Of a DNA stretch of 64,000 nt, positions 43,471 to 52,194 are shown piece after piece (the first letter of the stretch is position 1; every line of letters starts with the position of its first letter). The DNA lies in contig MWCD01000011.1 of the NCBI GenBank assembly GCA_002069885.1, positions 1 through 64,000 of the forward strand. Direction: 5' to 3'. Made by a program: the position numbers and the translations under genes. The notes beneath the pieces were generated by a model. It was not told the origin of the DNA. It made no database searches and was given only the letters and a program-made list of their open reading frames with translations. Source of the stretch: a bacterium ADurb.Bin236 (GTDB lineage: Bacteria; UBP15; UBA6099).

Positions 43471-45471
43471 ATGGATCCTCTGTTTGCGCCGATTAAGATT
43501 AACAAACTCGAAGTGAAAAACCGCATCGCGATGATGGCGATGCAGATGAACATGATATCTAACTATGAGGTGACCGACAGGATATGCGAGTTTTACGCGG
43601 AGCGGGCGAGGGGCGGTGTCGGCGCGATATGCGTCGGGTTCGTTTCAATCGACCGGGGCGGCAGCGCGCCGCTTAACATCGGCGGACATGACGATTCCTA
43701 TATTCCCGGCCTGACGAAACTTGCCGACGCCATCAAGAGCAACGGCGCGCGCGCTATGGCCCAGATCAACCACACCGGGCGCCAGACTTACCCGATGATG
43801 ATTCCCAAAGATATGGAGCCGGTGGCCCCGTCGGCTGTTTACTGCAAGATGACTGGCGCGAAACCGCGCGAACTGACAGAAGAGGAAATACTAGACATTA
43901 TCGACAAGTTTGCTAAGACAGCCGTCAGGCTGAAAACCGCCGGCTTCGAGATTATCGAAATTCTCATGGGCACTGGCTATCTGGTTTCCACCTTCCTGTC
44001 CCCGCTGACCAACAAGAGGACGGACAAATGGGGCGGCTCTGAAGAAAACCGGATGCGCTTCGGCCTCGAAGTATTCAAGGCGGTCAGGAACGCGGTCGGA
44101 GCCGATTTCCCGGTCACCGTCAGAATCAATGGAAACGACCTTATGGAAGACGGGCTGGGGAGCGCGCCGCATATCGCGTTCGCAAAAGCCCTTGAAGCCG
44201 CAGGCGCGGACGCCATTTGTGTGAACGTCGGCTGGCACGAGGCGAGGGTCCCACAGATAACTATGGGCGTGCCCCGCGCAAACTACGCCTATCAGGCCCG
44301 CAGAATAAAAGAAAACGTCAAAGTTCCGGTGATTGCCAGCCACAGGATTAACGACCCGCTGGAAGCCTCTGACCTTATAGAGCTTGGATACTGCGACATG
44401 GTGGGGATGGGCAGGCCGCTGATTGCCGATCCGCATCTTCCGAACAAGGCCATGCAGGGCAGGGACGAGGAGATTATTCATTGCGTTGCCTGCGGGCAGG
44501 GCTGCTTCGACCACGTTTTCCTTCTTCAGCCGGTAGAGTGCATGGTGAACCCGGACGCCGGATACGAATATCTAGGCGAAAGAGATTTGGCGGAAAAGAA
44601 GAAGAAGGTGGCGGTGGTGGGAGGCGGGCCGGCGGGCATGTCCGCAGCTTTGACCGCAAAGAGGCGCGGTCACGACGTCACTCTGTTTGAGCGCGCTCCC
44701 GTTCTCGGCGGCCAGCTATATCTGGCATCCGCCCCCGAAGGCAGAAGAGAGTTTGAGGAGATTATCAACGACTTCGATGCCCAGCTTGACATAGAAGATG
44801 TGAACGTCATTACAGACACAGAAGTGACGGCGAAGTATCTTAAGAAGGAGAAGTTCGACGCCGTGATACTCGCGACCGGCGCGGAACCGGCCACGATTCC
44901 CATTCCGGGAGCGGACAGGCCGAACGTTCTTCAGGCTTGGGACTACCTCGGCGGTATTGTCGGTGCAAGCGGCAAAGTGGTTGTGCTCGGCGGAGGCGCG
45001 GTGGGCGTCGAGTCCGCTCTGGTCCTCGCAGAAGAAGGCACAGTTCCGGCTGAAACCATCAAATTCCTGCTCATCCACAACGTGGAAACGCCCGAAGAAC
45101 TGCGCCGGCTGGCTGTCCACGGCACGAACGACGTAACCATCGTTGAGATGCTTCCCCGCGTCGGCAAGGACATCGGCAAATCCACTCGCTGGACCATGAT
45201 GGAGGACCTCTCCCGATACGGCGTGAAAGTCCTCACCAAAGCAAAAGCCGTCGAGATTAACGACGAAGGCATTGTCATCGACGACGCCGGAACGAAGAAA
45301 ACACTGCCCGCCGATTTTGTGATTCTCGCAGTCGGCTCGAAATCCTACAACCCTCTCGAAGAACAGTTGAAGGACAGCGGAATCGAGATAGCTGTAGTCG
45401 GCGACGCAAAGAAGATAGGACTTATCTTCGACGCCATACACGCCGGACACAAAGCGGCTCTCAAGCTTTGA
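43471..45471 (+). CDS. Old-yellow-enzyme-type Fe-S flavoprotein reductase
   Basis: The 666-residue protein has the layout of 2,4-dienoyl-CoA reductase/trimethylamine dehydrogenase-like enzymes. An N-terminal FMN-binding TIM barrel (about 1-330; MDPLFAPIKINKLEVKNRI, MAQINHTGRQ) is followed by a 4Fe-4S motif C-x2-C-x3-C-x11-C in HCVACGQGCFDHVF and then an FAD/NAD(P)-binding half (VAVVGGGPAGMSAALTAKRRG; VVLGGGAVGVESALVLAE). Electrons run NAD(P)H-FAD-FeS-FMN to an unsaturated substrate. Which enoate is reduced is not clear, because no beta-oxidation genes are adjacent. AAGGAG is 8 bases before the ATG. The gene stands alone and converges with the propeller operon. Confidence 0.9.
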   Translation: MDPLFAPIKINKLEVKNRIAMMAMQMNMISNYEVTDRICEFYAERARGGVGAICVGFVSIDRGGSAPLNIGGHDDSYIPGLTKLADAIKSNGARAMAQINHTGRQTYPMMIPKDMEPVAPSAVYCKMTGAKPRELTEEEILDIIDKFAKTAVRLKTAGFEIIEILMGTGYLVSTFLSPLTNKRTDKWGGSEENRMRFGLEVFKAVRNAVGADFPVTVRINGNDLMEDGLGSAPHIAFAKALEAAGADAICVNVGWHEARVPQITMGVPRANYAYQARRIKENVKVPVIASHRINDPLEASDLIELGYCDMVGMGRPLIADPHLPNKAMQGRDEEIIHCVACGQGCFDHVFLLQPVECMVNPDAGYEYLGERDLAEKKKKVAVVGGGPAGMSAALTAKRRGHDVTLFERAPVLGGQLYLASAPEGRREFEEIINDFDAQLDIEDVNVITDTEVTAKYLKKEKFDAVILATGAEPATIPIPGADRPNVLQAWDYLGGIVGASGKVVVLGGGAVGVESALVLAEEGTVPAETIKFLLIHNVETPEELRRLAVHGTNDVTIVEMLPRVGKDIGKSTRWTMMEDLSRYGVKVLTKAKAVEINDEGIVIDDAGTKKTLPADFVILAVGSKSYNPLEEQLKDSGIEIAVVGDAKKIGLIFDAIHAGHKAALKL

Positions 45472-45499: not shown

Positions 45500-46954
45500 T
45501 CAGGGAATAGAGAACTTCATTATTGTGTTTTGAGATGATGAAGACACAAAGATATGCTGGCTGGACACTGTCAGGCCGTACGAATTTGCCGCGACATTGA
45601 AATAGCCTAAAATATCTCCGGAAGCCGCGTCGAGATAAAGCAGCTTGTTGCTTCCGCTGCATAGAACGAACACATATTCCCAATCCGGGTCAGCCGCCAG
45701 TTCGGTGGGTTTCACGCAATACTGGAAACTCGATTGCGAAGCTACGGCAGTGTTGCTAGACGCGAAACCTTCGGCGTCCGCAAACAAGCGCAGCACGGGC
45801 TGAGACTGGCTCGCCTTGGATGTCGAGCCTCCGCATGTGACGTAAAGGGTAAGGTCCGGTAGAGCCAGAACATCCCACGGGTTCTCGCATGTGTTCGTGA
45901 ACCCCATCTCGGAAGCCGTCTTGCACTGCCCAGACGACCTGTCGCAGTACCCTCTTACGTCGTTTACGCCGAGGCTCGTCATGTTTAAGCATGTTCCGCT
46001 TGAGCATATTCCAGAGTCGCATCCCGAATTGCTCGAGCATGGGCATCCGGTTTTCTTTGAGTTCGATCCCGAGCAGCTCGCCGCGCAGTACGGAAGCATC
46101 GGCGAATAGTCGCAATAGTTGCTGTTGCAGTTGCTGTTCGCCGTGCACGGGCAGTTGTTTCTATTGCCTTTCGTTCCCGCGCATATCCCGGTGGTCTGGC
46201 CGTCATAGATGAATGAGCTGAAAGACTTCGAACGGGGGTCGTCCGGCGCAAACGGATGGATCCTGTTGTTGTTCTTGTCAATCGCGTAGCCTACTCCGAG
46301 GTCGGCGTCCAGCCTCAACCTGTAGGGACTTGCCCCTGTAAAATAGCTGATTCTCGAAATAACCGTTTCCGTTTCGGGGTCTATCGCCGTGATGAAGAAG
46401 TTAGTCCTAGCCGTCACGTAAATAACGTCATAGACGGAGTCGTAAACTATGTCGCTCGGATTAGAAGGCTCCGTTCCGGAAACTTCCAAGCTTATCTCGT
46501 TGGTCACTTTGTTCTGGGCGATGTCGATGACCGTCAGCCACGCGCCGTTCCTTCTAGGCTCTGACGGCAGATATTTGGAAGTTGCGCAGTGCCGGGATTC
46601 GAGTTGGTTGTCATGGGTAACGAATAGTTTCGAAAAATTCGAATTGAAAGCCAGCCTTCGCGGATCGCAAAGAACCGGAATGGATCGGGAAATCTGCATA
46701 GTCGGGATTTCTATCACGTCCACTGTGTTCAGGAGAGTGTTTGCCACATACAGCCGGGTTTCGTCAGCGTTGACGGCCATGCCCCACGGAGACTTGAAGT
46801 CGCCGACTTCGGTGGCAACCTCAATGCCGGGCGCGGAGCCTCTTCCGCACGAGGAAACCGAAAACGCTATTAGAGCCAAAGCAGCGAACATGGCCGCCGC
46901 GCGCGCTCTTGCGGCTAAAAGCTTCAAGAAATGTTTACAGGGATATTCCCGCAT
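45500..46954 (-). CDS. Beta-propeller lipoprotein with cysteine-rich insert, copy 2
   Basis: The 484-residue lipoprotein has a lipobox FSVSSC (cysteine about residue 36) and YncE-like propeller repeats (SPWGMAVNADETRLYVANTL, VDVIEIPTMQISRSI). Between propeller blades lies a cysteine-rich insert with twelve cysteines in two related units, CPCTANSNCNSNYC and CPCSSNSGCDSGIC, resembling Dickkopf-type or knottin disulfide domains. It is a tandem paralogue of the upstream gene (46976-48433) with the same insert. It is probably anchored to the outer membrane as a ligand-binding protein. Third gene of the operon started by the SLH porin, 21 bases after its paralogue. Confidence 0.72.
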   Translation of the reverse strand: MREYPCKHFLKLLAARARAAAMFAALALIAFSVSSCGRGSAPGIEVATEVGDFKSPWGMAVNADETRLYVANTLLNTVDVIEIPTMQISRSIPVLCDPRRLAFNSNFSKLFVTHDNQLESRHCATSKYLPSEPRRNGAWLTVIDIAQNKVTNEISLEVSGTEPSNPSDIVYDSVYDVIYVTARTNFFITAIDPETETVISRISYFTGASPYRLRLDADLGVGYAIDKNNNRIHPFAPDDPRSKSFSSFIYDGQTTGICAGTKGNRNNCPCTANSNCNSNYCDYSPMLPYCAASCSGSNSKKTGCPCSSNSGCDSGICSSGTCLNMTSLGVNDVRGYCDRSSGQCKTASEMGFTNTCENPWDVLALPDLTLYVTCGGSTSKASQSQPVLRLFADAEGFASSNTAVASQSSFQYCVKPTELAADPDWEYVFVLCSGSNKLLYLDAASGDILGYFNVAANSYGLTVSSQHIFVSSSSQNTIMKFSIP

Positions 46955-46975
46955 CTGGCGGCCACCGTCCGGGTT

Positions 46976-48433
46976 TTATCTTATAGGTTGTCTGTGTATT
47001 GCGCCCGAAGCGGCTGATGTCACAAACACGTATTCATCTGAAGCGACCATGTGCGTCGGATTTTCGGGAACAGAGAAAATATCCACGGCATTGCCTGTGT
47101 CCGCGTCGATGACGAGAACTGCGGCGCTAGCCGAGCAGAGTAGAAAAACATATTCTTCCGAGGGGTCTTTCGCAAGTTCCGTCGGTCGAATGCAGGACAT
47201 GAAACTCTGCGTTGTCGCGACCGAAGCCATGTTTGATGCGATTCCGTCGTTGTCCAGAATAATCCTGAGCAGAGGTTGCGAAGCCGAACCACCTGTCGAG
47301 TCTCCATAGCAGGACACGTACATCGTGTTGTCAGACATCAGAAGCATGCCCCTAGGCTCTTTGCATATGGGCGAGGTCATCCCCATCTGCGCTGGGGTCA
47401 GGCACATGCCGTCGCTCGTGTCGCAATAGCCCCTGACGCTTGATAGCCCAATTATCGTCGGTGTCACGCAGACATTGTTATCGCAGATTCCGGAAGAGCA
47501 GTTGCTGTTCTGAGTACAAGGGCAGCCTGACCTGTTGGAGGTTGAGCCGGAGCACGCCGTCGCGCAGACGGGCAGTATGTAGCTCTGGTCGCAATAACCG
47601 CTGTTGCAGTTGCCGTTAGCCGTGCAGGCGCACGAGTTCTTGTTGCCGGACGTCCCGGCGCAATAACCTTGCGTCTGGCCGTTAAATGTGTATTCGGTGT
47701 GGTTGTCTTCTCTGAAGTCCGTAGCGTTGAAAACGTTAATCCTGTTGTTCGACGGCTCCAGCATATATCCTATGCCCCGATCCTCGTCGAAGTTTATCCT
47801 GTAGGCCTTTCTGGTCGAGTAAACTGACATCCCGCCGAGGACTTCGTCATCGTCGGCGTCTACCATCGACACAATGCCCGTTGTCGTGAGGCCGACCACG
47901 TAGAATATGTTGTTCACCGTGTCCAGCGTGATGTTCCTAGGGTTCCTTATTAACGCGTTCGAGGCTTCTATGTTGATCTCGTTTACGACTTGCATCTGAG
48001 CGATGTCGATAACGGAAACGTAAGAGCCGATGCGTCTCACTTGGGACGGGTCATAGGCCGATATCGCGCATGAGTTGGAGTCCAGCATGGTGTCGCTGTC
48101 GTGGGTGACGTAGAGCTTCGTGTAATCCCTGTTGAACGCCAGATATCTTGGCCCGCAGATCACGCGGATGCTTGCGATTGAGTCCATGGTTGCGGCGTTG
48201 AAGACCTCCACGGTGTTGTAGCCGTTATTGGCGACATACAGCCGGGAGCCGTCTTCGTTGAGCGCCATTCCCCACGGAGCCCTTCCCGCGCCTATCATGT
48301 AATCCGTGTTGTCAACCCGCCCTTTGCCCGTTCCGCAGGACGAGCAGGCAAACGCGCACAGCGCGATTAAAATGAATGCCGGAGCGAATCTACGCGCCCT
48401 TGCTCCGGCTTTTGCTGTCTGTTTGATTCTCAT
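46976..48433 (-). CDS. Beta-propeller lipoprotein with cysteine-rich insert, copy 1
   Basis: The 485-residue protein has a lipoprotein-type signal (ALCAFACSSC; lipidated cysteine most likely residue 33) and YncE-like propeller repeats (RAPWGMALNEDGSRLYVANN, NTVEVFNAATMDSIASI). The insert again has twelve cysteines in two units (CACTANGNCNSGYC, CPCTQNSNCSSGIC). Many disulfides imply an oxidising compartment, so cell surface or periplasm. The gene lies 22 bases after the SLH porin stop and 21 bases before its paralogue, indicating one operon. The ligand is unknown. Confidence 0.72.
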   Translation of the reverse strand: MRIKQTAKAGARARRFAPAFILIALCAFACSSCGTGKGRVDNTDYMIGAGRAPWGMALNEDGSRLYVANNGYNTVEVFNAATMDSIASIRVICGPRYLAFNRDYTKLYVTHDSDTMLDSNSCAISAYDPSQVRRIGSYVSVIDIAQMQVVNEINIEASNALIRNPRNITLDTVNNIFYVVGLTTTGIVSMVDADDDEVLGGMSVYSTRKAYRINFDEDRGIGYMLEPSNNRINVFNATDFREDNHTEYTFNGQTQGYCAGTSGNKNSCACTANGNCNSGYCDQSYILPVCATACSGSTSNRSGCPCTQNSNCSSGICDNNVCVTPTIIGLSSVRGYCDTSDGMCLTPAQMGMTSPICKEPRGMLLMSDNTMYVSCYGDSTGGSASQPLLRIILDNDGIASNMASVATTQSFMSCIRPTELAKDPSEEYVFLLCSASAAVLVIDADTGNAVDIFSVPENPTHMVASDEYVFVTSAASGAIHRQPIR

Positions 48434-48455
48434 TTTCTGGTTTGTTGCCCCTCGG

Positions 48456-51359
48456 TCAGAATTGTGTCGATATCTTTAGCATGAGCTTCTGTTCGTCGAC
48501 CACCGGATATTTTGCGTATGTGTATCCGCTCTCGAAACTGCCCGCCGTCGTCGCTTTGTAATATTTGTCCCTTGCCATGTCGGTGTCGTAATTCTTTTCG
48601 TAGTAAAAGAGGACGCTGGTCGAGCCGGTAAGTTTGTAATCCACTTTATGAGTCGTCTTGAAAGATTTTCCTGTCGGGGCGAGGTCGCTTATGATTGTCG
48701 CCACGTCCGGCAGCGACGGGAAATCGACGCTAAGCTTGATGTCCGATATGTCGAAAGACGCTGTATAGTTTGCCCTCTTGGATGTTTTCCATTCGATTTT
48801 GTAGCTCTGAGTCACCATCTTGAAATCCAGTTTTAGGGACACGTCGCCAGTTTCCGGGAACGCGTCGAAGCAGGTGTATTTTCCGTTGCCCATCACCCTG
48901 TCTATCATCGTGCCGTGGTCGTCCAAGATATCCACTATGTTGCCGTCCAAGCATGATTCGGGGAGCGCGGCCTTGATCGCCGTCGAACTGAAATTAAAAA
49001 TTATTTTGTCGGAAAGATAATACTTGAGTCCGTTGTTCCAGACGTTGAGGCTGAGCATCTCGCGCCTAGTGTTCACTTTTGCTATGAAGTTGGAAAGAAC
49101 CGATATGGATGTGCCTTTGGAACTGTTGCTGCTCAAGCCGTAAGCCACAGCGCCGGGGTCGAAATACATGGGCTTGATTTCGTTGCCGGTCACATACATG
49201 GAATTAAACGAGAAGTTCTTGTCCTGTATCTTGTCTATCGCGACTCTGCCCAGATATAGCTCCATGCTCTGTATCGATATCGGCAGGAATGAAAGTCCGC
49301 TGAGGAGGTCGCCTCCTGCCGATTCTTTTTCATCTTTGTCGAAATCGTTTCCTCCGGCGGAGCCGAGGTCCAATCCGGGAACTCCGAAATATTTCGTTAC
49401 GAATTCAGGCCCCAGCCGTGCGTAACCCAGCGGGAACACGCTGACCGGGCCTCTCGAAAAATCAAGAAGCAACAGGAAAGCATCGTCCTGATCGTTCCTC
49501 TCCTTTGAGGGGAACCATTTCGCGTATTTCAAGGTCATATCGTTCGTGTCTACGATTTCCGAGCCTTCGGGCAGGTTGTCCTCATCCATCCATGCCGGAA
49601 GGTATGTTCCGTCCTTCACCACTCCGTATCCCGGTTTGTAATATGTGCTGTGCGCGTACTCTGTCGTTACGGTCACGCCGAATTTCAGGGGATATCTTAC
49701 GAAGACGCTGGTGACGCTGTTTTTTTCCGGAGGCAGACAGAACATGTCTTTGTACACTTCGTCGTTGGCCATTTTGTTTGAAACGGAAGGGTCGGGCCAG
49801 TTGTTCAGATCAATCCATCTGCCCGGTTCGCAACCTGTCAGATAGTTGCCCATCCAGCCGTAGAAGTTCGTGTGCGGGTCGTCAAACATGAATATTTTCT
49901 GGATATTGCCCATCGACGCCGGCTCTCCGAACACGCTTCCCTGCATGTTGAAGCCGTACAAATATCTGTCGTAAATGGTGTCGTCTCCGTGCTTGTGCAA
50001 CGGCGCGTCGCCAAGCAACATGGGATAATGCTGAGCCACTCTTCCGCCGAACATGTTCAGGTTGTAGTCATTCAGCTTGAAGCTTGCGCCTATGCCCTGA
50101 ATCTGCCTCCCGAAAATCGTCAAGGGCGAATACATCACCGAGACGTCTCCGGCGCTCAATGTTTCGAGCCTGAAATTCTTCATTTTGGACGGGTCTTGCG
50201 GCTTGTTTATATATTTCAAAGCGACATTTTTAATTGTCAACGGCGTGTTCGAGCCTTCGATATAGCCGAAGTATCCTTTTCTCCCGCCGAGGCTTGTGTA
50301 GGCTTCCAATTCGGAAGAGAAAGTCATATTTGCGTCCGCGTCAGGTTTGCTGTCCAGTTTCAGCTTCAGCCTGTTGTATAGCTTGGTCAATCCGTAAGTC
50401 GGGGTGCTGACTTTTTCGTAAGTCAATGAATCGCCGTCATAATAAGCGACCTGCGATTCGATATAGTCCTGAAGGATATCCCTTGTTTTGAAATAAACTT
50501 CGTCAGAGCCTGTTATCCTGAACCGCTCGTCTTCGCGCTTGAGGGCATTGATAGAGCGTTCATTCTTTAGGGCCAGTTTTTCAACGTCCTTGATTTTTTT
50601 CTCTAAGTTTTTATTTGTTTCTTTCATTTCCTTCTGGAAATCGTTCACAAGGTTTTCGAGGGTTTCGATATCTTTCTGGGAAAGCTCAATTGTTTTCTTA
50701 ACCTCTTCGAGTTTTTCCTCCCATTGCGGTTCGGGAGGCGCGGGAGGTTCGGCTTTAGGTTCCGGCTCCGGTTCGGGTGAGCTTGCAGGCTCTTCCATAA
50801 TCTTCATCGCGCGGGGGCCTGTGCGGGTAAGGGTCACGTTTCCGCCTTCGGCGCGTATGGTGACGTCTTTATTCGGCGGCGTCACAAGAGAAGGCAGCGG
50901 AGGGGTGACTCTTCTGATTGCGGCTTCCGGCTGAGCGGCGGGCTGGGAAATCTGTCCGACTGAGACTTCGACGGGTTTTTGAACTCTCACGAGCCGGCTG
51001 GAGGTTATCTGTCCCGTTCCGTGCCATTCGAGGTAGGAATCCAGCAGTTTGTTGACCGCCACCGCCATTTCCCTTCTCGTCATCGGCTCTGAACTGTTCA
51101 GCTTGGAAGCGTCGTACCCGTCCAGCATGCCGATAGAGGCGAAGTGGGAAACGGCTCCGTACGACCAGTGGTTTCTGGGTATCAGCGAGTCGGGGCCTTG
51201 TATGTGGTTGTACAGCCTGTCGAGCTGTTCGAAAGTGTCGCCGGACATCTCGACCGGAGGTTTCTCGATGCTGATTGATTCAGCGAGCGCCGGAACCGCC
51301 CGGAGCGCGCAGAAAAGCGTCGCCACTATTGCGCATGATATGTTGAATGATTTTTTCAT
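48456..51359 (-). CDS. SLH-domain outer-membrane porin (OmpM-like), large
   Basis: The 967-residue protein has a signal peptide (ending ALA-E), one SLH domain (about 60-107; HWSYGAVSHFASIGMLDGYD), a Pro/Glu-rich linker and a coiled coil (about 215-285). A beta-barrel of about 680 residues follows, ending in the aromatic KISTQF, as expected for BAM-dependent insertion. In OmpM-type proteins the SLH domain binds peptidoglycan-linked polymers and the barrel forms a pore, so the protein tethers the outer membrane to the wall. First gene of an operon with two cysteine-rich propeller lipoproteins, 22 bases away. Confidence 0.85.
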   Translation of the reverse strand: MKKSFNISCAIVATLFCALRAVPALAESISIEKPPVEMSGDTFEQLDRLYNHIQGPDSLIPRNHWSYGAVSHFASIGMLDGYDASKLNSSEPMTRREMAVAVNKLLDSYLEWHGTGQITSSRLVRVQKPVEVSVGQISQPAAQPEAAIRRVTPPLPSLVTPPNKDVTIRAEGGNVTLTRTGPRAMKIMEEPASSPEPEPEPKAEPPAPPEPQWEEKLEEVKKTIELSQKDIETLENLVNDFQKEMKETNKNLEKKIKDVEKLALKNERSINALKREDERFRITGSDEVYFKTRDILQDYIESQVAYYDGDSLTYEKVSTPTYGLTKLYNRLKLKLDSKPDADANMTFSSELEAYTSLGGRKGYFGYIEGSNTPLTIKNVALKYINKPQDPSKMKNFRLETLSAGDVSVMYSPLTIFGRQIQGIGASFKLNDYNLNMFGGRVAQHYPMLLGDAPLHKHGDDTIYDRYLYGFNMQGSVFGEPASMGNIQKIFMFDDPHTNFYGWMGNYLTGCEPGRWIDLNNWPDPSVSNKMANDEVYKDMFCLPPEKNSVTSVFVRYPLKFGVTVTTEYAHSTYYKPGYGVVKDGTYLPAWMDEDNLPEGSEIVDTNDMTLKYAKWFPSKERNDQDDAFLLLLDFSRGPVSVFPLGYARLGPEFVTKYFGVPGLDLGSAGGNDFDKDEKESAGGDLLSGLSFLPISIQSMELYLGRVAIDKIQDKNFSFNSMYVTGNEIKPMYFDPGAVAYGLSSNSSKGTSISVLSNFIAKVNTRREMLSLNVWNNGLKYYLSDKIIFNFSSTAIKAALPESCLDGNIVDILDDHGTMIDRVMGNGKYTCFDAFPETGDVSLKLDFKMVTQSYKIEWKTSKRANYTASFDISDIKLSVDFPSLPDVATIISDLAPTGKSFKTTHKVDYKLTGSTSVLFYYEKNYDTDMARDKYYKATTAGSFESGYTYAKYPVVDEQKLMLKISTQF

Positions 51360-51432
51360 ACTATGTGTCAGATTCTTTCTCTATATAAGAAATTGCTTTT
51401 CAATAAAAAAAACAGCCCCAAAGGTCATGGGG

Positions 51433-51461
51433 ATTTTATCAAATGCCGTATATAAATTCAA
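51433..51461 (-). promoter_or_regulatory. Extended -10 promoter of the SLH porin operon
   Basis: On the minus strand TTGAAT (51456-51461), a 17-bp spacer and TGA-TAAAAT (-10 at 51433-51438). The leader is about 65 bases. It is back to back with the rplU promoter. Confidence 0.65.
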
Positions 51462-51494
51462 TGCAAAAGGTTTGAAAAAAAATATGTTTTTTTA

Positions 51495-51523
51495 TTGTAA
51501 ACGAAAAATTTGTCTGCTAGAAT
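51495..51523 (+). promoter_or_regulatory. Extended -10 promoter of rplU-rpmA
   Basis: TTGTAA (51495-51500), a 17-bp spacer and TGC-TAGAAT (-10 at 51518-51523), about 55 bases before the rplU ATG. Confidence 0.7.
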
Positions 51524-51577
51524 GATTCGGCTTGCCTGAAGGAAGGCGGGCTGTTACACTATTTGCGGGGTGAAGGC

Positions 51578-51892
51578 ATGTCAGCGATAATAAAGATAGG
51601 CGGAAAGCAGTTTACGGTCAAGGAAGGCGACGTCATCCGTGTGGAAAAGATGGACGGAGAGCTTGGCCAGACGGTGAAGATAGACTCTGTGATGGCGCTG
51701 ATCGGCGGAGAGGAACCGAAGTTCGGCTCTCCTTTCGTGCAGGGGGCAAGCGTCGAAGCCAGAGTGAAGCGGCAGGGCCGCGCGAAGAAAATCTTCGTCT
51801 TCAGGTACAAACCCAAAAAACGCATCAGGACGAAGACGGGTCACAGGCAGCATTACACGGAGCTTGAGATAGACAAAATCATCACGGCATAA
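51578..51892 (+). CDS. rplU: Ribosomal protein bL21
   Basis: The 104-residue protein matches bL21 throughout: [18 protein letters not shown] at the N-terminus and [20 protein letters not shown] at the C-terminus, the signature 23S-binding block. It is part of the 50S subunit. ATG 51578 is chosen over the in-frame TTG at 51563 because GTGAAGG lies just upstream and bL21 normally starts directly with its first beta strand. rpmA follows 47 bases downstream, the usual pairing. Confidence 0.97.
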
Positions 51893-51939
51893 ACGACAAT
51901 AACGCCCGGAGCGGTTCATCCGGGCGCGGAGGCATAGAG

Positions 51940-52194
51940 ATGGCGCATAAAAAAGGACAGGGAAGCTCGACAAACGGACGCGACAGCCAGCCGAAGATGC
52001 GCGGCGTCAAAAAGTTCGGCGGAGAAGTGGTGAAGCCGGGCAATATCATCATCCGCCAGTGCGGCACGAAAATCATGCCGGGCAGCAACGTCGGCATGGG
52101 CAAAGACTACACCATATATTCTCTCATAGACGGCAGGGTGGAGTTCGAGCGCGTGGGCAAGAACAGAAAGAAAGTCAGCGTGACCGCCGGTTGA
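51940..52194 (+). CDS. rpmA: Ribosomal protein bL27
   Basis: The 84-residue protein is bL27, whose N-terminal [16 protein letters not shown] reaches the peptidyl-transferase centre. The N-terminus starts MAHKKG directly, without the cleavable extension found in Firmicutes. It follows rplU and is ended by a strong terminator 44 bases later. In many bacteria obgE comes next; here it does not. Confidence 0.97.

Follow-up and report, generated by a model that had tools for sequence, protein, structure and literature searches.

An SLH porin and its neighbouring propeller lipoproteins: a conserved gene pairing in the candidate phylum UBP15

Main finding

In the lineage studied here, the candidate phylum UBP15, one or two propeller lipoproteins come next wherever the 3′ side of the gene for an OmpM-type porin is sequenced, and most of these bear a cysteine-rich insert. 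Five relatives, which belong to three families, retain the order of porin and propeller, and the propellers are probably docked accessories of the porin beside which they are encoded. In the window, i.e., the whole stretch of 64,000 nucleotides that was analysed, the genes are three and all are on the minus strand. That detail was absent from a first-pass annotation whose gene order, coordinates and spacing proved exact: the porin runs from 51359 to 48456 and, after a 22-base gap, is followed by propeller A from 48433 to 46976 and, after a 21-base gap, by propeller B from 46954 to 45500. The features are as follows.

48456..51359, minus strand: SLH porin, 967 amino acids, with signal peptide, one diverged SLH domain (about residues 58-112), Pro-rich linker, predicted coiled coil (about 228-279) and beta-barrel ending in F967
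46976..48433, minus strand: propeller lipoprotein A, 485 amino acids, modelled by AlphaFold2 as a seven-bladed YVTN/YncE-type propeller
47462..47680, minus strand: 12-cysteine insert of propeller A, modelled in the c-d loop, between strands 3 and 4 of blade 4
45500..46954, minus strand: propeller lipoprotein B, 484 amino acids, paralogue of A (45% identical), with canonical lipobox VSSC
45980..46201, minus strand: 12-cysteine insert of propeller B, faster-evolving, its G001 counterpart carrying a Cys-rich expansion of about 95 amino acids
53990..56695, minus strand: second SLH porin, outside the operon, 901 amino acids, about 36% identical to the operon porin, no propeller 3′, without the 510/541 cysteines, the natural comparison

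What might such genes do together? Tentatively, we favour an explanation in which the three encode a single envelope assembly. The OmpM-type porin would tie the outer membrane to the wall via its SLH domain and pass small nutrients, and the two lipidated propellers would dock on the operon porin specifically, most likely on its loops, where, as a lid or gate with a binding role, they would capture solutes or choose among them, much as BtuG serves BtuB. The insert, rich in disulfides, would be an optional, rigid and protease-resistant addition to the rim, adjusting docking or ligand contact. Improbable as it stands is the fuller proposal of a receptor-gated wall-tethered porin, in which two disulfide-stapled propeller lids would catch a ligand and load it into a TonB-independent SLH porin, i.e., lid-type uptake based on the OmpM tether. 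What the annotation observed is confirmed and its interpretation as a whole is partly supported; the surface receptor or substrate-loading complex for the porin of which it had spoken stays a candidate role. Porins of the OmpM type may be an ancestral device that both fastens the outer membrane to the wall and feeds the cell (PMC10628300), and if a dedicated lipoprotein partner proves true, such passive porins can gain substrate-specific accessories, as TonB transporters have.

The combination of porin, propeller and insert appears to be undescribed, as had been surmised: combined terms for the three retrieved no paper in the literature searched, where even the name UBP15 is nearly absent, and no other phylum tested shows it.

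The porin and its solitary paralogue

The known porins closest to that of UBP15 are OmpM1 of Veillonella and SlpA of Deinococcus, which are like it in having an SLH domain and, by prediction for the UBP15 porin, a coiled-coil stalk and a C-terminal barrel ending in F. It is unlike them in that its predicted barrel is lineage-specific, matches outside UBP15 being confined to the SLH part, and in that propeller lipoproteins are encoded next to it. With the focal porin alone Pfam SLH is not detected, and the alignment to the OmpM1 SLH domain has E=0.019. The porin family profile, however, matches OmpM1 SLH (8bz2) at 1.1e-15 and SlpA at 2.6e-12, and Pfam SLH is above cut-off in the orthologues from G005 and G006, which represent two other families. 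As judged from sequence, the N-terminal signal and the SLH domain of an OmpM-type porin are present, and the earlier designation as OmpM-like stands. Pfam finds no TonB plug domain in it.

The structure model of the porin is poor (pLDDT 38), too much so for docking, with a helix at 228-279 and many strands predicted; the C-terminal F is invariant among porins. The operon porin aligns over nearly its full length with the second SLH porin and with orthologues in all the relatives, and in the same genomes no propeller adjoins the paralogue. Cysteines 803 and 830 are common to linked and solitary porins (9/9), whereas cysteines 510 and 541 occur in 6/6 propeller-linked porins and in 0/3 solitary ones, which supports the reading of the propellers as a lid. 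The stretch 510-541 is probably a long extracellular loop between strands, a placement taken from the same low-confidence model (pLDDT 38).

Two propellers with lipoboxes

Each of A and B starts with a signal sequence that ends in an aligned SSC-G lipobox, and its C33-G34 is invariant in all ten propeller homologues; the lipobox of B is canonical and that of A, CSSC, is unusual at −3. The TIGR02276 YVTN repeat is above cut-off in both. An AlphaFold2 model of A, from a 10-sequence alignment, has seven blades, most of them confident (pTM 0.76), and when it was used with Foldseek the target-normalised TM was 0.76 to YncE and 0.68 to hydrazine synthase beta. With the repeat in both and the fold modelled for A, the two are assignable to the seven-bladed YVTN/YncE-type propeller class, in keeping with their earlier description as paralogous lipoprotein propellers. 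They resemble E. coli YncE, Lp49 and archaeal 1l0q in fold and repeat signature, and are unlike the YncE types in being lipoproteins with a cysteine framework and insert and in scoring 26-33 bits against the YncE equivalog NF052280, for which the curated cut-off is 400.

The family profile has as its best match in the PDB 1l0q, an archaeal surface-layer YVTN propeller, at 2.5e-31 (5.7e-25 with A alone as query), and it also matches hydrazine synthase beta, YncE and Lp49. Its matches to the BtuG structures 8bmx, 8okv, 8blw, 8p97 and 3dsm, identified as such from PMC10404256, are weak (E 0.003-0.01). Might the propellers then be lactonase-type or quinoprotein-type enzymes, or a subunit that assists one, acting on a solute admitted by the porin? 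Lactonase, PQQ-associated and hydrazine synthase beta models match weakly and point in that direction, but the scores stem from repeats common to YVTN propellers generally and are below curated cut-offs, mostly far below, the one exception being the homologue of G006, without insert, where a lactonase model passes marginally (25.5 vs a cut-off of 21.7 bits), and we regard this as very unlikely. The surface-layer match would also suit adhesins or S-layer-like display proteins at the surface, merely co-expressed with an abundant porin, as would the faster variation of insert B and its gain of a Cys-rich block in G001. That is doubtful, however, given the strict pairing with one porin across three families, the conservation of insert A at the level of its propeller, and the absence of any other adhesin module.

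For the lid that we prefer, the nearest worked precedent, by analogy, is BtuG. In Bacteroides also, the gene for a seven-bladed propeller lipoprotein is beside that for an outer-membrane transporter, and the products of the btuG-btuB operon form a lidded complex (PMC10404256). The UBP15 system is unlike it in having an SLH porin as partner instead of the TonB-dependent BtuB, two propellers and the 12-cysteine insert, and nothing points to B12. As the partner is not TonB-dependent and the sequence similarity is weak, the likeness to BtuG is one of arrangement and not of membership.

The cysteine-rich insert

In A the insert (residues 258-322) has twelve cysteines, as does that in B, and none of the twelve varies among the nine insert-bearing copies, down to about 34% overall identity, which bears out the count given in the annotation. 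The AlphaFold2 model of A has the insert emerging between strands 231-236 and 333-337, which are the third and fourth of blade 4, with its first half at low confidence (residues 256-299, pLDDT <50). Directly after it are C337 and C344, which are missing only in B of G005 and there together, and this joint loss suggests a cysteine pair. Five framework cysteines (93, 122, 375, 414 and 433) are shared by all ten copies without exception, the insert-free protein of G006 included. In evolutionary rate the two inserts differ, that of A being conserved as well as its propeller and that of B varying faster.

What of the two Dickkopf/knottin-like units that had been proposed? A two-fold cysteine spacing is indeed seen, and 'two units' beyond that spacing is interpretation, but homology to either fold is unsupported by Pfam, NCBIfam or PDB. 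For the inserts of A and B in the window neither Pfam nor NCBIfam has a family at E<=5, and Pfam likewise has none for the insert of A in G005, so that the model of the Dickkopf N-terminal Cys-rich domain has no match there. For a knottin, the best PDB match, kalata-B1, extends over 21 residues only, at E=0.095, and part of the insert is at low confidence in the model. The nearest resemblance (E=3.3e-5) is in cysteine spacing, to the CxxDxDCxSGxC modules of a bacterial cysteine-rich lipoprotein in which, unlike here, such modules form the whole protein and there is no propeller. This 472-amino-acid lipoprotein (L145 781-2199, minus strand), from the unrelated genome G097, consists of repeats of that module and is the only insert-like match outside UBP15. 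Within UBP15, propeller B of G001 (L034 5419-7158, minus strand) has about 95 extra Cys-rich residues inside its insert, and these show a weak similarity of plexin/PSI-like kind (E=0.023).

The genome of the window also encodes, on contig C76 (L069 3283-3987 and 4278-4970, minus strand), two VKOR paralogues side by side, which are likely the enzymes that form disulfides and make an oxidising periplasm plausible.

Distribution in UBP15 and beyond

The search of related genomes that the annotation had suggested as a check gave the five relatives mentioned at the outset. In G001, G003 and G005 the porin is followed by two insert-bearing propellers; G002 has both propellers, across a contig break; and G006, a deep relative, has the porin and a single insert-free propeller, with the porin stop and the propeller start sharing one base (TGATG). 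G004 was left out of the pairing count as its porin contig ends inside the porin. Identity across the relatives goes down to about 37-44% for porins and about 24-34% for propellers, and a tree of the A and B copies, with long branches, leaves the order of duplication and family divergence unsettled. Since G006 retains the porin with one propeller that lacks the insert, the pairing can do without it. What stays constant is a porin with a propeller lipoprotein beside it, and the insert is an optional elaboration gained or lost within UBP15.

Do the propellers occur widely without the porin, which the annotation had held would tell against its proposal? A profile search of 386 genomes found the propeller only directly 3′ of the operon-type porin, with none in the approximately 380 other genomes, and A and B are the sole full-length copies in their own genome; a genome-wide spread in UBP15 is ruled out, as operon copies alone are found. 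A pattern scan, not exhaustive, of 84,980 species genomes gave full-length matches in UBP15 only, plus partial generic propellers. A generic propeller that accompanies many SLH porins is also ruled out, since in 40 neighbourhoods of SLH genes from other phyla there was none, and positive controls worked. Purifying selection on the operon genes (dN/dS about 0.03-0.2, whole genes), together with recurrence in other families, shows that the operon is not due to chance.

Lid or scaffold?

That only one of the two SLH porins is paired, and strictly so, points to an accessory specific to that porin, and the lid reading draws support from the restriction of the propellers to this operon and their absence beside the paralogous porin. 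It is further supported by the conserved gene order, the overlap in G006, the weak BtuG match, the btuG-btuB precedent and the two VKOR genes. It is weakened in that generic YVTN/YncE propellers match better than BtuG, that an operon can also be conserved for the sake of co-regulation, with no contact between its products, that the porin model is poor and that LolA is not found.

The last point bears on location. The genome is that of a diderm, to judge from its one TonB-dependent receptor and its numerous proteins of TolC type; at 92.6% completeness LolA was not found in it, and the Lol system is reported to occur only in Gracilicutes (PMC10628300). This leaves lipoproteins with no evident route to the outer membrane, still less to the cell surface, and if the partnership is true it raises the issue of how they get there in a diderm phylum where LolA is not found. 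Surface delivery not being assured, and a lipobox not being evidence of surface export, the propellers could instead be periplasmic, in the inner leaflet of the outer membrane or in the inner membrane, as scaffolds that help the stalked porin to assemble, keep it stable or fix it to the wall, a role in which propeller folds are common, and not be receptors for solutes. Yet a general aid to tethering or assembly would be expected at both SLH porins, not beside one only, and the cysteines unique to linked porins are in the long loop that the model places, probably, outside; scaffolds are, in our estimate, rather unlikely. Docking as a lid is the reading with which we continue, tentatively.

Genomic setting

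Shuffled sequence has sites resembling terminators and promoters at least as often as the surroundings of the operon. The operon is divergent from, and beside, rplU-rpmA (window 51359-52194), and in G005, of another family, it is beside rpmA (L035 12464-13218), which was read there from its antisense ORF only; the location next to rpmA is conserved between the two. The other flank has a gene for an OYE-type oxidoreductase (window 43471-45471, plus strand), which is 99.4% identical to that of G001 and 95.8% to that of G003. This order is the reverse of that for porin and propellers, which suggests recombination or transfer at the OYE gene.
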